NCBI GenBank assembly: GCA_947494335.1 | Contig: CANLUT010000001.1 | Coordinates: 496,001-560,000 of the forward strand | Length of the DNA: 64,000 nucleotides | Source of the DNA: Oligoflexales bacterium | GTDB taxonomy: Bacteria > Bdellovibrionota_B > Oligoflexia > Oligoflexales > RGVZ01 | Direction: 5' to 3' | Shown: piece after piece, positions 37,635 through 43,406 of the stretch | Position numbering within the stretch: position 1 is the first letter of the stretch | Layout: every line of letters starts with the position of its first letter | Position numbers and translations under genes: made by a program | Notes under the pieces: model-generated | The model's input: only the letters and a program-made list of their open reading frames with translations | The model's database searches: none | Told to the model about the DNA's origin: nothing

Positions 37635-38567
37635 TTGAGTAAGCGCAAAGTTAGTCCGTATCAATTGGTTGTAACTGACATCGACAATACGGTGTTTGAC
37701 TGGGTCAATTATTATGTGGCCTCGTTTAATGCTTTGCTCGACACTGTCGCCGGCGTTATTGGCTCAACGCGCGAGGTCCTTGCAGCAGAGGCCAAGGATG
37801 TCTTCACGACTCACGGCAGTATCGAATATCCGTTTCTAATTCAGGAGCTAAAGTCTGTTAACGAATTCTATGGCAGCAACATCGATGCCATGCTTAACGA
37901 GGCTGTATTCAAAGGTCGTGAAGCCTTTATGAAGGAGGCGTCGCGAGTTCTCAAGCCCTATCAGGATGTTCATAGGACTCTCAGTGAGATCAAGCGTCAC
38001 TACCCAGATTTGCCGATTATTGCATTGACGGATGCGCCGCGCTATGTCGCCATGTGGAAGCTAAACAAGCTCGGTCTTCTAGAATTCTTTCATGCAGTTT
38101 ATGGATTGCCAGACCCTCGAGTACCAACCTGCGAGGTCAATCGCCGTGTTAAGGTGGATCCCGAAATTCTGCTCAAGCACCTTCAGCAAAGTAATTTTGG
38201 ATTCAAGGGTAGAATTCGAATTTTACCCGACGATTACGAGAAGCCAGGAGTCCGTGGTCTTAAAACCGTACTCATGGATTACGAATTGGACGAACCAGTC
38301 GAGCATCGCAAAAGTGTTTTATGGATTGGCGACAATCTTCGCAAAGATATTGGTCTAGGCAATCGTCTGGGTGTTCGCAGTGCATGGGCTGAGTACGGCA
38401 CGAGGCTTGATCAGGGAATTTTGGCCAGTTTGGCGTTATTCAGTCCGACGCAGAACGTCCACAAGAATGTTTACATCAAAGCTGATGATCCTGCGGCCCC
38501 AAAGCCGAGTGTGGTGTTTGCAGCATTTGCCGATGTCTTGAAGGAGCTTGGTATCGAGGGAAAATAG
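37635..38567 (+). CDS. HAD-superfamily hydrolase
   Basis: TTG start; 310 residues. HAD motif I is VTDIDNTVFDW (DxDxT), motif II IIALTD, and motif IV VLWIGDNLRKDIGLG. Motif III Lys is probably in the 'MWKLNKLG' or RRVKVDPE region. An unusually long segment between motifs II and IV (about 80 residues, PDDYEKPG...) distinguishes it from small phosphoglycolate phosphatases. Substrate unknown. Last gene of the lipid cluster before a terminator. Confidence 0.82.
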   Translation: MSKRKVSPYQLVVTDIDNTVFDWVNYYVASFNALLDTVAGVIGSTREVLAAEAKDVFTTHGSIEYPFLIQELKSVNEFYGSNIDAMLNEAVFKGREAFMKEASRVLKPYQDVHRTLSEIKRHYPDLPIIALTDAPRYVAMWKLNKLGLLEFFHAVYGLPDPRVPTCEVNRRVKVDPEILLKHLQQSNFGFKGRIRILPDDYEKPGVRGLKTVLMDYELDEPVEHRKSVLWIGDNLRKDIGLGNRLGVRSAWAEYGTRLDQGILASLALFSPTQNVHKNVYIKADDPAAPKPSVVFAAFADVLKELGIEGK

Positions 38568-38602
38568 ATTTCCAGCGGCGTGTTTGCCGCTGAAATTTTT
38601 TT
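38568..38602 (+). terminator. Intrinsic terminator
   Basis: CAGCGGC (38573-38579) pairs with GCCGCTG (38586-38592), extended by ATTT/AAAT with one bulged C and followed by seven T. It closes the 35916-38567 gene cluster. Confidence 0.85.
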
Positions 38603-38631
38603 CAGTCAACTATCTTAATGTGAGTGTTTCC

Positions 38632-39570
38632 ATGAAGTGTCCTGCATGCAGCCAAGCCATGACCCCAGAACGTTATGAAGCTACATCTATCCACGAGTGC
38701 CAGGCCTGTCGATCCGTCTGGATCTCTACCGATGCTCTGTCATCAGCGATAGGTTCAACTGAAAAATTTTTTTCCGCGGATGAAATCAAAAATATTCTAT
38801 CAACGTTGCGACAAACCCCTCAAGCCGTCCGTAATTTGAAGTGTCCGACTTGTTCTGATGTGATGGTGTGTCATCATTATGCTGCAGACCTAGAGATTCA
38901 CATTGACCGTTGTCCTAAAGATCACGGAGTGTTTTTGGATAACTCTGAGCTGGAGGCGATTCAGCTAAAGTTTGAGGATCGATCAGCGCAGAGTTCCGCA
39001 AAAAAGACTTCGATCCAATCGACATCTCAGGCGCAAAAGCGCTGTCCACGCGATGGCGAGCAGTTAAAACCTGAGACCTATGAACAGCAATCTGTGGATT
39101 TATGTCCAAAATGCGGCGGTTTTTGGTGTGATGATGGAGAACTCGGGCAGATTGTCAAAAGTCGGGATATCAAACATGGTGATGTCTTGTTTCCTGAATT
39201 CAAAGGCAATGAAGCAGATGCCAACGCCAAAGGTGCCGATATTTACTCTCACGTCACGCCTTGTGTGGTGTGTGGCGCAGCCATGGTCCACCTGAACTAC
39301 TGTGCCAATTCAGGAATTATGATTGATAGCTGTCGTCAAGGTCATGGAACATGGCTTGATCGCAGTGAGCTCGAACGCGTTCAGGTTTTTGCAGAGCGCT
39401 GGCAGAAAAACGCGCAAGATGCCTATGCACGTCATGCGCAAAAATTTGCGGCCATTGCTCAGCAGTCTTCGGCTTACTACGAAGCCATGGTTAGGCGTCA
39501 CAAAGCCGAGGCTAGAAGTCTTTCGGTCGTTGGGCGGATTCTCAATTCTATTTTCGGTCAGTCACGCTAG
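38632..39570 (+). CDS. Four-fold zf-TFIIB zinc-ribbon protein
   Basis: Start at ATG 38632, since the first codons (MKCPACSQAM) open a zinc ribbon; an upstream extension crosses the terminator. 312 residues with four tandem zf-TFIIB repeats: CPAC...CQAC, CPTC...CPKD-H, CPRD...CPKCGG, CVVC...CRQGH. Each is followed by the W/F-x-D-x-x-E-L end typical of the family (VFLDNSELEAI, WCDDGELGQI, TWLDRSELERV). A Gln/Ala/Lys-rich helix ends the protein. Single-repeat versions are widespread and uncharacterised; four in a row is unusual. First gene of a co-oriented run to 42064. Confidence 0.82.
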   Translation: MKCPACSQAMTPERYEATSIHECQACRSVWISTDALSSAIGSTEKFFSADEIKNILSTLRQTPQAVRNLKCPTCSDVMVCHHYAADLEIHIDRCPKDHGVFLDNSELEAIQLKFEDRSAQSSAKKTSIQSTSQAQKRCPRDGEQLKPETYEQQSVDLCPKCGGFWCDDGELGQIVKSRDIKHGDVLFPEFKGNEADANAKGADIYSHVTPCVVCGAAMVHLNYCANSGIMIDSCRQGHGTWLDRSELERVQVFAERWQKNAQDAYARHAQKFAAIAQQSSAYYEAMVRRHKAEARSLSVVGRILNSIFGQSR

Positions 39571-39587
39571 TGTAGGGAGCGCAAGGT

Positions 39588-40328
39588 ATGATCGCGATCA
39601 TTATTGGTGTGGGTTTGTGCTTGATGGTACTTGAGCGTCTGATGCCAGATCAGATACTACAGAAAGTTGACGGATGGTGGCTGCGTGTCATTATCGTCAA
39701 CGTCCTACAGCTTGGTGTGGTGCTCCTGGCTGACTTGGCTTGGAATCAATGGTTTCAAGTGAGTCTATTTTCGCTACCGAACTATTTCTCGATGCCCATG
39801 GCTGCATTTATCTGTTATTTGCTCCTGACGTTTGTTTTTTATTGGTGGCATCGACTGCGTCATGACATCAACATCTTGTGGCTTAGCTGCCACCAACTGC
39901 ATCATAGCGCTAGCCGGATTGAGACCATAACTTCCTTTTATAAGCATCCGCTTGAGCTTATTATCAATGGCATCATCATTGCCGCCGTCAACTTCGGCAT
40001 TTGTGGACTCACCATAGAAGGTGCTGCTTGGGTGACTCTGTATACAGCGCTTGCAGAGTTTTTCTACCATATGAATATCAAGACACCTCGATGGGTTGGT
40101 TACATCATTCAACGCCCTGAGATGCATCGCATCCACCACAAGCGTGGGTTTCATTATAATAACTTCGCTGATCTTCCCGTATGGGACATGATGTTCGGTA
40201 CTTTTGAAAATCCTCCCACCGTCGAAACGCCGTGTGGATTTAAGCCAGAGCGCGAAGTTCAGTTTAAGGAAATTCTCACCTTCAAGAACGTGAACAACGC
40301 ATATCCGCTATTTGCCAGGAAGAAATAG
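39588..40328 (+). CDS. Sterol desaturase / fatty acid hydroxylase superfamily protein
   Basis: 246 residues with four to five membrane helices and the three His boxes of di-iron membrane hydroxylases: HRLRHD, HQLHHSASR and HRIHHKRGFHYNNF. Members hydroxylate or desaturate lipids at the membrane using O2; the substrate here is unknown. Lies 17 bp after the zinc-ribbon gene and 9 bp before a small envelope gene. Confidence 0.92.
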   Translation: MIAIIIGVGLCLMVLERLMPDQILQKVDGWWLRVIIVNVLQLGVVLLADLAWNQWFQVSLFSLPNYFSMPMAAFICYLLLTFVFYWWHRLRHDINILWLSCHQLHHSASRIETITSFYKHPLELIINGIIIAAVNFGICGLTIEGAAWVTLYTALAEFFYHMNIKTPRWVGYIIQRPEMHRIHHKRGFHYNNFADLPVWDMMFGTFENPPTVETPCGFKPEREVQFKEILTFKNVNNAYPLFARKK

Positions 40329-40337
40329 AGGTGAGCC

Positions 40338-40829
40338 ATGTCAGTTTTGTCCCAAGTAAATTGGCCGGTGCGAGTCGTTCTTCTCATCGGATCGTTGCAG
40401 TTGATTGGGTTTGTCACCCAACTAGATCTAGTCCGCAATATCGGTCGTCTGACGACGGCTTCACCGCTACCCTTGGTGTTCTCGGACTTTCGCGGCCTAG
40501 AAACGTTTTCCCTTGAGTTTAATATTCGCGCCGAGGCTCAAGATGGGTCAACATCTGAAAAGCTTATTACGCCGGAGCTCTATGGTCAGTTCAAGGGGCC
40601 ATATAATCGTCGTAATGTTTACGGCGCTGTGCTGGCATATGGTCCAAAATTGACTGAGCCTAGTGAAAAGCCGCTGGTCGATTCGGTGCTAAAATATGGA
40701 TTCTGCCAAGGTGGCCCCTTGATTGAGATGTTTGCGCTCACAAGCCCAGCGCGAAAAATTACGATCAATACGCGATCAAAGGCTCGAGGTGATGGTTCAA
40801 CCTATGTGACGGAGGTTGCATGTCCATGA
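40338..40829 (+). CDS. Small membrane-anchored hypothetical protein
   Basis: 163 residues with one N-terminal hydrophobic segment (VRVVLLIGSLQLIGFV), a likely anchor, and a soluble periplasmic remainder. Start ATG 40338 with GAGGTGAGCC upstream. Overlaps the HTTM-DCC gene by 10 bp, so it is probably a partner of it. I recognise no family. Confidence 0.7.
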   Translation: MSVLSQVNWPVRVVLLIGSLQLIGFVTQLDLVRNIGRLTTASPLPLVFSDFRGLETFSLEFNIRAEAQDGSTSEKLITPELYGQFKGPYNRRNVYGAVLAYGPKLTEPSEKPLVDSVLKYGFCQGGPLIEMFALTSPARKITINTRSKARGDGSTYVTEVACP

Positions 40830-42064
40830 CATCGTCTGTGAAGCTTTATCGCTATTCGAGCTGGCATTTTGCATTTTTCAGAATTCTCTTTGGTTTATAT
40901 CTGGCGATTCATTTTTGGGACTTGGTTGCGTATGCTCCCGAGATTTGGAGTGGTACTGGTAATTTGGGTGATCCGTCGATTCTGCCCAGCTACGGCATGT
41001 TTCCAAATATTCTTTTCTGGTTTACGTCCGCGGCATTTGCACGCGGTTTCTTGTGGTTTTTATTCTTGATGGCAGTGCTCTTTACGGTCGGTGCTTGGCG
41101 CAGGATTGTGGCGTTGATTCTTTGGTATGGTTGGGCCTGCCTAGCTGGTCGTAATCCGTTTATCGCCAACCCCGGTCTACCGTTTATTGGTTTGCTGCTG
41201 CTCGTCTGTGCCATCGCGCCTAATGGTGAACCCTTTGCTGTCACAAAGGGTAAAGACGGCGAGACATGGCGGATGCCAGAAGGCCTTTACGAGGGTGTTT
41301 GGATCATCATGGCCCTAGGTTACACCATCAGTGGGCTTCATAAGTGTCTTAGTCCCTCCTGGGCAGACGGCACGGCAATTGTTCATCTTCTGAATAATCC
41401 TCTCAGTCGTGACAATAGCCTCAGGCATATGCTGCTATCCATGCCAGAGATTCTCCTGAAGTTAAATACATGGGGCGTCCTCGCACTCGAGGTTTTATTT
41501 GCGCCGCTTTGTTATTTTGTGTTTACGCGCAAATGGACGTGGCTTGCCATGATTGGTATGCACTGCGGTATCGTCAGTCTGGTGAACTTCGCGGATCTGA
41601 CTATTGGTGTTTTGATGGTCCATTTATTCACGTTTGATGACCGCTGGTTGCCCGGTAAGAAAACTGAGCAGTCTCCCGTTCTTTTCTTTGACGGGGTTTG
41701 CGGACTTTGCAATGGTTTTATTCAATTTCTGTTTGACGTTGATGAGCAGTCGGTCTTCAAGGTGGCAACTCTACAAGGGGCGTTCGCTGCTGAAAAACTT
41801 CCTGACACACTGACCAAGAATCTTAACAGTTTGGTGGTTATGACAGATGAAGGCACGTTGCTCACAAAGTCTCGTGCGGTTTTATTTGTGATGACCCGTG
41901 TGGGTGGCCTTTGGCGCGTCGTCGGTATCGCGGGAAATCTAGTCCCAGCCGGCGTTACGGATATCGCCTATGATCTAGTGGCCAAAAACCGCTATCAATT
42001 GTTTGGAAAACTTGAAAGCTGCCGGATGCCAACACCGGGTGAGCGTTCCAGGTTTGTTGGGTAA
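40820..42064 (+). CDS. HTTM-domain membrane protein fused to DCC (DUF393) thiol-disulfide oxidoreductase
   Basis: Start ATG 40820 or 40826, GGAGG at 40811-40815. 414 residues. Residues up to about 280 form a multi-helix HTTM-like membrane domain (SWHFAFFRILFGLYLAIHFWDL near the start), the vitamin-K-carboxylase-like superfamily. Residues about 285-410 are a DCC domain with VLFFDGVCGLCNGF, a CxxC redox motif. DCC proteins are commonly encoded beside HTTM proteins; here they are one chain. Probably an inner-membrane thiol chemistry module; no substrate known. Confidence 0.85.
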   Translation: MSMTSSVKLYRYSSWHFAFFRILFGLYLAIHFWDLVAYAPEIWSGTGNLGDPSILPSYGMFPNILFWFTSAAFARGFLWFLFLMAVLFTVGAWRRIVALILWYGWACLAGRNPFIANPGLPFIGLLLLVCAIAPNGEPFAVTKGKDGETWRMPEGLYEGVWIIMALGYTISGLHKCLSPSWADGTAIVHLLNNPLSRDNSLRHMLLSMPEILLKLNTWGVLALEVLFAPLCYFVFTRKWTWLAMIGMHCGIVSLVNFADLTIGVLMVHLFTFDDRWLPGKKTEQSPVLFFDGVCGLCNGFIQFLFDVDEQSVFKVATLQGAFAAEKLPDTLTKNLNSLVVMTDEGTLLTKSRAVLFVMTRVGGLWRVVGIAGNLVPAGVTDIAYDLVAKNRYQLFGKLESCRMPTPGERSRFVG

Positions 42065-42211
42065 TATATATCTCTTTGGGTCACGCGATCACGGCTAACG
42101 GCTTTGGTCAATTATGCCTTTCAAAGTCCCCTAAATTCTGGTTACATGATAAGCAAGTCTAAGGTGGTCGTATCAATATCTATAAGTTTAAAGCTCACAG
42201 AGGATGCAACG

Positions 42212-42718
42212 ATGATGGCCAAAGTTTTTATGCGATGCTTCGCTTCGCTGGTTCTTTTGCTCGGTGTTAATGGTATCTCCCGTGCCGACTCCAGTAAGTA
42301 CGCCTTTGCTCAGATAACTGCTGTTGAGGATGGATATTTTGGAGCGAAGAGAGTTTACTACTCATTAAAGTGTAACGAGATTTTTCTAAGTTATCTGACA
42401 GAAGACACATCAAATAATGTGCTTTCTGTTGGAGTGCTGAAAGAAATATTACCGCGGAACTGCAATCGTCCCGTGCGGCAGGAGTGGGTACGCATCACGC
42501 CGGAAGGCCGCAATGTCTTGCCAACCGAAGCCTTTGATGAGGTATGGAAGTGCAGTGGCATCTGCTACATCATCTCTGATCCTGCCGAGGACCCCTACAA
42601 AAAAGTGACTAAATTCGGTACCAGCGAAGAGCAAGCGAGAGACCGGTTGCCGTGCCCTGCCGATGATCAGATCGACATGGTCTGTCGTCAAGTTGAGGTT
42701 GAAAGTGTGCTTGACTAA
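42212..42718 (+). CDS. Exported protein of unknown function
   Basis: Start ATG 42212 (AGAGG 8 nt upstream) rather than a longer frame from 42104 that would bury the signal peptide. 168 residues. Signal peptide MMAKVFMRCFASLVLLLGVNGISRA, then a mature region of about 140 residues with six to seven Cys (including CSGICYI), probably disulfide-bonded in the periplasm. No recognised family. Ends at a strong terminator. Confidence 0.68.
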   Translation: MMAKVFMRCFASLVLLLGVNGISRADSSKYAFAQITAVEDGYFGAKRVYYSLKCNEIFLSYLTEDTSNNVLSVGVLKEILPRNCNRPVRQEWVRITPEGRNVLPTEAFDEVWKCSGICYIISDPAEDPYKKVTKFGTSEEQARDRLPCPADDQIDMVCRQVEVESVLD

Positions 42719-42755: not shown

Positions 42756-42791
42756 AATGGGCCACCTGCTATTTGCTGCAGGTGGCCCATT
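42756..42791. terminator. Bidirectional terminator hairpin
   Basis: A 13-bp perfect stem (ATGGGCCACCTGC with GCAGGTGGCCCAT) and 8-nt loop. The A-run at 42753-42757 gives a U-run on the minus strand, so it best serves the histone-like gene, while the plus-strand T-run is weaker. Confidence 0.85.
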
Positions 42792-42813: not shown

Positions 42814-42996
42814 TTATTCGAAGTCGCGGTCCATGACCGTCTTACGACCGTCGTTCTTAGCGCGTTCAATTGCTTTTTGTATTTCGCGCTCGACAACTTT
42901 GGTTAAAGCGTCCATCACGCTGGCTGATGTATTCATGCCAGATTGATCTTTGATAAGCTGTTTGACTTTGCTTGCAACTACCAACACCTGACTCAT
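42814..42996 (-). CDS. Bacterial histone-fold protein (Bdellovibrio HBb/Bd0055-like)
   Basis: 60 residues, start ATG 42996 with GGAGGG 6-7 nt upstream. The sequence has a helix (VLVVASKVKQLIKDQ), MNTSASVMDALTK leading a long central helix with VVEREIQKAIERAKND, then GRKTVMDRDF. This matches the minimal histone fold: a short first helix, long second helix, RKTV loop as in archaeal histones and DUF1931 proteins, and a final short helix. From memory it closely resembles the histone of Bdellovibrio bacteriovorus, reported to be a major chromatin protein; I could not align them here. Expected role: dimeric DNA-binding nucleoid protein. Own terminator. Confidence 0.85.
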   Translation of the reverse strand: MSQVLVVASKVKQLIKDQSGMNTSASVMDALTKVVEREIQKAIERAKNDGRKTVMDRDFE

Positions 42997-43034
42997 AGAG
43001 TCCCTCCAACATCATAGATTCATGATCTGCTTGT

Positions 43035-43055
43035 TCTGACCTATAACATGTCAGA
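43035..43055. promoter_or_regulatory. Inverted repeat upstream of the histone-like gene
   Basis: TCTGAC and GTCAGA arms separated by 9 nt lie 39-59 bp upstream of the start. The minus-strand spacer contains TGTTATAG, which could be an extended -10. An operator overlapping a promoter is possible; no good -35 is seen. Confidence 0.3.
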
Positions 43056-43060
43056 TGTGG

Positions 43061-43090
43061 AGAAAAATGAAAACCCCCAAAAGCGGGGGT
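43061..43090 (-). terminator. Intrinsic terminator of the 95-residue gene
   Basis: On the minus strand ACCCCC-GCTTTT-GGGGGT is followed by TTT and, after CA, TTTTT. It lies 28 bp past the stop at 43119 and separates this gene from the histone-like gene. Confidence 0.75.
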
Positions 43091-43118
43091 CAAAATTTAA
43101 TCTTTTTGATTAAATATT

Positions 43119-43406
43119 CTATTCGTCGACAGCGGCCTGTTTTTTAAGGACGTCGACACAGACGTCCACGAGGGCTTCCTTGTTTTCAAGGTGCTTCACA
43201 AGCGCTCCCAGGCGATGGCTTAAAAGTCCTGCAAGTTCTTTCAGGTCAACGTCTCCAGCCTCCACATGCCGAAGGATGACGTGATCTATCTCGTCTGCAA
43301 TTTTGAGTAACTTAACCGTGTTGGTGTCGAGTTTTGTTTTCGACGACGGACGTAGAGGAATAATCTTAGCCTGGGACTCGGTCTTTGGATCGTCACTGTT
43401 TGACAT
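43119..43406 (-). CDS. Small hypothetical protein (95 aa)
   Basis: GGGAGG precedes the ATG by 5 nt, supporting translation. The N-terminus is polar and basic (KIIPLRPSSKTKL); the rest is helical (LLKIADEIDHVILRHVEAG, LAGLLSHRLGALVKHLENKEALVDVCVDVLKK). No family recognised; cytoplasmic. It has its own terminator, so it is not co-transcribed with the histone-like gene to any great extent. Confidence 0.65.
   Translation of the reverse strand: MSNSDDPKTESQAKIIPLRPSSKTKLDTNTVKLLKIADEIDHVILRHVEAGDVDLKELAGLLSHRLGALVKHLENKEALVDVCVDVLKKQAAVDE

Follow-up and report, generated by a model that had tools for sequence, protein, structure and literature searches.

A histone gene on the minus strand

The window, by which we mean the whole 64,000-nucleotide stretch of Oligoflexales DNA that was analysed, contains a short gene that encodes a histone of the family of Bdellovibrio HBb (Bd0055). 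The gene and the features that surround it are listed in Table 1. The reading frame starts with an ATG at 42996, ends with a TAA at 42814, and yields the product MSQVLVVASKVKQLIKDQSGMNTSASVMDALTKVVEREIQKAIERAKNDGRKTVMDRDFE, which has a predicted pI of 9.2. When the same interval was read on the plus strand, it was interrupted by stops. A 60-residue open reading frame had been predicted for this interval without a strand; its boundaries proved to be exact, and it lies on the minus strand.

Table 1. Positions of the histone gene and of neighbouring features in the window.
Feature	Position	Strand	Basis or remark
Histone gene, 60 aa, bacterial singlet (alpha3-type), HBb/Bd0055 family	42814..42996	-	Open reading frame, PDB match, coding constraint, fold
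Shine-Dalgarno sequence GGAGG	43003..43007	-	6 nt upstream of the ATG; read in the sequence
Intrinsic terminator of the histone gene	42756..42791	.	Perfect 14-bp stem with a T-rich tail on each strand
Weak inverted repeat TCTGAC/GTCAGA around the -10	43035..43055	-	z -1.1; likely the upstream inverted repeat of the original prediction
Candidate extended -10 promoter element, TGTTATAGG	43040..43048	-	Kept in the L016 upstream region as TGTTATAAG
Intrinsic terminator of the upstream 95-aa gene	43072..43091	-	Hairpin, separate from the -10 repeat
Upstream neighbour open reading frame, 95 aa, family unassigned	43119..43406	-	Profile searches, locus comparison

Transcription signals and neighbouring genes

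The gene had been predicted to carry its own ribosome-binding site and a strong terminator, and both were found. Purine-rich stretches resembling the Shine-Dalgarno sequence were also present ahead of most of the histone homologues. The arms of the terminator stem (42756-42769 and 42778-42791) pair with an energy of -28.7 kcal/mol and a z-score of -6.6, and the minus-strand tail that follows the stem is TTTAAT, or TTTTT when the outermost A-T pairs are excluded from the stem. This terminator is common to the histone gene and to the convergent gene at 42104-42718.

An upstream inverted repeat had also been proposed as a sign of controlled expression, and this part of the original prediction failed. 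The TCTGAC/GTCAGA repeat has arms of 6 bp (43050-43055 and 43035-43040), and in a congener (L016) the arms are not complementary, such that the pairing is not kept. The repeat was ruled out as an operator on the grounds of its weak z-score and its non-conservation, and it is probably not a control element. The congener has the promoter-like TGTTATAAG without the paired arms, and the region was read as a -10 rather than as an operator. By eye, TGTTATAGG is probably an extended -10 element; a consensus promoter scan did not pick up this -10. Since the hairpin at 43072..43091 ends the transcript of the upstream gene, transcription of the histone gene is probably monocistronic. A histone operon was rejected: the upstream gene is terminated separately and, apart from the window, the nearest congener was the only one of the compared loci in which the two genes are neighbours.

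The 95-aa product of the upstream gene matched no Pfam or NCBIfam family. One copy each was present in 24 of the 27 good-quality Oligoflexales genomes, down to approximately 33% identity, and the gene encodes an uncharacterised small protein of this order. On the other side, the histone gene of the congener adjoins a homologue of 37635-38567. In the window, approximately 4 kb (38548-42718) lies between these two genes and contains several others, including those for a cysteine-rich protein, a fatty acid hydroxylase family protein and a DCC1-like protein. This stretch is an insertion or deletion difference between the two loci.

Relationship to the Bdellovibrio histone

A sequence search of the PDB with the 60-residue product returned HBb/Bd0055 of Bdellovibrio bacteriovorus (8fvx, 8cmp) with an E value of 1.8e-15. 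The match was full-length and ungapped, with 34 of 59 residues identical (58%), and archaeal HTkC, an FtF histone, came next among the families at 9.4e-6. The bit scores were 58.9 for HBb, 28.8 for HTkC, 25 for HLp and at most 21 for all others, which places the sequence in a cluster with HBb. The product had been said to recall the Bdellovibrio histone, and the comparison with Bd0055 confirmed that it is a true homologue, which belongs to the published 'bacterial dimer' (alpha3) histones.

The profile search that the original prediction had called for gave a divided result. Archaeal-histone profiles matched the product, but only below their curated cut-offs (PF00808, 18.1 bits compared to 21.4; NF043032, 28.1 bits compared to 50), and the product therefore falls outside the archaeal and nucleosomal histones as these profiles delimit them. 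Automatic annotation may miss the histone gene as a consequence. The second family named, DUF1931 (PF09123), matched neither the histone product nor any other protein of the genome. Members of that family, termed pseudodimers, are alike in having the histone fold, but their profile spans 138 positions and a double fold, whereas the window protein is a single fold of 60 residues. DUF1931 membership was ruled out by the absent Pfam match and by the lack of a second fold in the chain.

A length of merely 60 codons and the failure to attain the curated Pfam and NCBIfam cut-offs would be compatible with a spurious open reading frame or a chance resemblance at 42814-42996. The probability of this explanation is negligible, given the strength of the HBb match, the presence of a ribosome-binding site and the at least 229 relatives encoded in reference genome contigs, 80 of which were kept. 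It was refuted by the test of coding constraint. The congener protein is 92% identical to the window histone, and in the pairwise comparison of the two genes approximately 33 of 37 synonymous sites had changed, compared to 5 of 140 nonsynonymous sites. Synonymous change between the two genes is saturated, and the histone gene is under strong purifying selection.

Predicted fold and conserved residues

A single chain was modelled with AlphaFold2 from an alignment of 42 homologues. The monomer model (mean pLDDT 92) has helices at residues 2-19, 26-48 and 56-59, so that helix 2 comprises 23 residues and helix 3 four residues, or one turn. Alpha3 histones are defined by a shortened helix 2 and a helix 3 of 3-4 residues, and the window protein shares these traits with HBb, as it does the single fold without a tail. 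HBb entries were the top matches both in Foldseek (E 2e-4) and in VIA-align (Z 7.5, rmsd 1.7 over 55), where they ranked above nucleosomal histones. The claim that this bacterial gene encodes a histone fold was thus upheld by the model as well as by the HBb sequence match. HLp of Leptospira perolatii (9QT0) and HTkC of Thermococcus kodakarensis (9F2C), which likewise have the alpha3 fold, aligned with Z scores of 7.0-7.1 and rmsd values of 1.3-1.6; the Z scores of HBb, HTkC and HLp (7.0-7.5) are tied within tool error, so that dimer and tetramer types are separated by sequence and not by fold alone.

The positions that contact DNA in HBb (8CMP, 8FVX, 9EZZ, 9F0E, 8FW7) were taken from published crystal and simulation work (PMC11317129, PMC10627809). 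All seven site-1 contacts of the crystal structure (K12, T23, S24, A25, K52, T53 and R57) are identical in the window protein. At site 2, S9 and K10 are identical and T8 is replaced by A8 (two of three kept), and T8 is also the only one of the ten main contacts in simulations to be lost. The RD clamp, R51/D58, and D49 are identical to HBb. The RKTxxxxD motif corresponds to R51-K52-T53 and D58, and these four residues are invariant in the 42 homologues, as are S9, K10, K12, V54, M55 and R57. Helix 1 carries S9 and K10 together with K12 and K16. In the dimer core, V11 and L31 of HBb are kept, and I35 is replaced by V, I59 by F and L38 by E; with these substitutions, the interface may differ from that of HBb. 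Glutamate occupies position 38 in 10 of 11 Oligoflexales rows and 18 of 21 Chlamydiota rows of the alignment; 42 of the 51 other rows have L, M or I there.

The nearly equal structural match to HLp and HTkC raises the alternative that the protein forms a face-to-face tetramer that wraps approximately 60 bp, like Leptospira HLp and as proposed for archaeal HTkC. The FtF tetramer residues are R48 and N52 in the numbering of the FtF profile (R49 and N53 in HLp). R45 of the window protein occupies the arginine position and R51 matches HLp R55, and R45 is combined with D or E at position 49 in 6 of the 11 Oligoflexales rows. The FtF asparagine is likewise missing from HTkC, which is a tetramer in the crystal and carries R and E at positions 45 and 49. 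However, the residue in place of the asparagine is D49, which in HBb forms a salt bridge with R51 (PMC11317129, PMC10627809), and the protein has the RKT lysine, a residue characteristic of bacterial dimers that shows no strong conservation in the FtF profile. Identity to HLp and HTkC in structural alignments is 36-41%, and their sequence scores are far weaker than that of HBb. The tetramer is on this evidence unlikely, and the dimer is preferred.

Distribution and phylogeny

The nearest named relative came from a metagenomic genome labelled Pseudobacteriovorax by its submitter, of the order Oligoflexales. The histone gene was found in 13 of the 27 good-quality Oligoflexales genomes, and some genera mix carriers and non-carriers; draft assemblies can miss a gene of 183 bp, and some of the absences may be false. 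As about half of these genomes did not yield the gene, it is not universally essential in the order. Within the genome, a search with the window protein gave no other match at E <= 10, which ruled out a second histone. Carriage by phage or plasmid was also rejected: the searches returned neither a phage match nor a related viral contig, and the plasmid matches were only distant haloarchaeal DUF1931/histone proteins with at most 42% identity.

Several relatives differed in architecture or label. Three proteins from contigs labelled Bacteriovoracaceae (L088, L090 and L095; approximately 131-149 aa) carry two HBb-like histone folds per chain, a doublet built from folds of the bacterial-dimer type. 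Others (L040, L045, L047, L052, L056 and similar proteins) carry E-, Q-, N- and T-rich N-terminal extensions of approximately 5-20 residues, which are common in homologues labelled Bdellovibrionales and Oligoflexia and absent from the window protein. A contig labelled Euryarchaeota archaeon (L071) encodes a histone of the bacterial-dimer type with 59% identity to the window protein; the contig is probably mis-binned, the other explanation being a transfer.

The bacterial-dimer histones of Chlamydiota, among which the literature names those of Waddlia and Simkania, are closer to the window protein than HBb is (L018, L023 and others; the nearest are 73-75% identical). They share E38 but mostly have N at position 45, where the window protein has R, and none of the Chlamydiota loci compared has neighbour genes in common with the window locus. 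In the protein tree, the Oligoflexales and Chlamydiota sequences were split together from other Bdellovibrionota, Planctomycetota and others with support of 98/95; this rose to 100/97 after removal of long branches and was 99/86 when column 38 was also masked. The placement of HBb, which forms a long branch, is unsure. The grouping suggests horizontal transfer between Oligoflexales and Chlamydiota. The tree rests on approximately 60 columns, too few to prove transfer, and topologies with a single Oligoflexales clade (p = 0.37), with a single Chlamydiota clade (p = 0.26) or with Oligoflexales joined to the other groups (p = 0.39) were not rejected by AU tests; transfer stays a suggestion since these vertical alternatives stand. 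It is possible, though doubtful, that the two groups form a distinct E38 sub-lineage that was transferred between phyla and whose handshake or higher-order interface and shaping of DNA are unlike those of HBb.

Discussion

HBb is a dimer that binds DNA across the genome without sequence specificity, and no other protein is as abundant in the Bdellovibrio nucleoid fraction; attempts to delete its gene failed (PMC11317129, PMC10627809). In simulations it bends DNA by 84 degrees across 36 bp (PMC11317129, PMC10627809), and one group found that it gives straight, sheathed filaments and not bending (PMC10627809). Homology to HBb, coding constraint, the monomer fold and residue conservation were established here for the window protein, and by its kinship with HBb it most likely also dimerises and binds and bends DNA, and may be abundant.

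We consider it highly likely that the gene encodes a tail-less, single-fold alpha3 histone that bends DNA as a head-to-tail handshake dimer. Two copies would pair head-to-tail through the long helix 2, and the dimer would contact the DNA backbone at minor grooves without sequence specificity. The L1-L2 surface would bind through K12, T23, S24 and A25 of one chain and K52, T53 and R57 of the other, with further contacts from S9 and K10 at the start of helix 1, and the DNA would be bent much as by HBb. A short transcript of its own would encode the protein, which would act beside the products of the genome's four HU/IHF-family genes. HU/IHF proteins (PF00216) are unrelated in fold and sequence, and the function, that of small DNA-bending nucleoid proteins, is probably shared. 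The patchy distribution in the order and a full HU/IHF set that could handle packaging would fit a divergent protein of the histone fold whose role is not architectural, one that regulates locally, for instance, instead of packaging DNA in general. Such a role is very unlikely, as all but one of the DNA-contact and clamp residues are conserved and HBb binds its host's genome non-specifically and in great abundance.

Histones of Bdellovibrionota, Chlamydiota and other bacteria have already been published (PMC10627809, PMC11390915, PMC11317129), and the bacterial-dimer group has been described for Bdellovibrionia, Elusimicrobiota, Spirochaetota, Planctomycetota, Myxococcota_A and Chlamydiota. 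Histones of Oligoflexia or Oligoflexales were named in none of the main texts found, supplementary tables aside, though they may be among the sequences of the 2023 Bdellovibrionota survey. As expected, this organism joins the bacteria that have histones, which is an incremental step; modestly new are the occurrence in 13 of 27 good-quality genomes of the order and the grouping with Chlamydiota together with E38, the latter two a small unexplored twist within a known histone group.

The present gene adds a patchy Oligoflexales branch, in a sister lineage of the predatory Bdellovibrio that has been studied less, to the known bacterial histones, and one member of this branch coexists with four HU/IHF proteins. 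If the grouping with Chlamydiota and E38 hold, they offer a natural series in which the gene is present or absent and position 38 is L or E. With such a series one could ask what a genome already equipped with HU gains from a histone, and whether histones of this kind spread between phyla.
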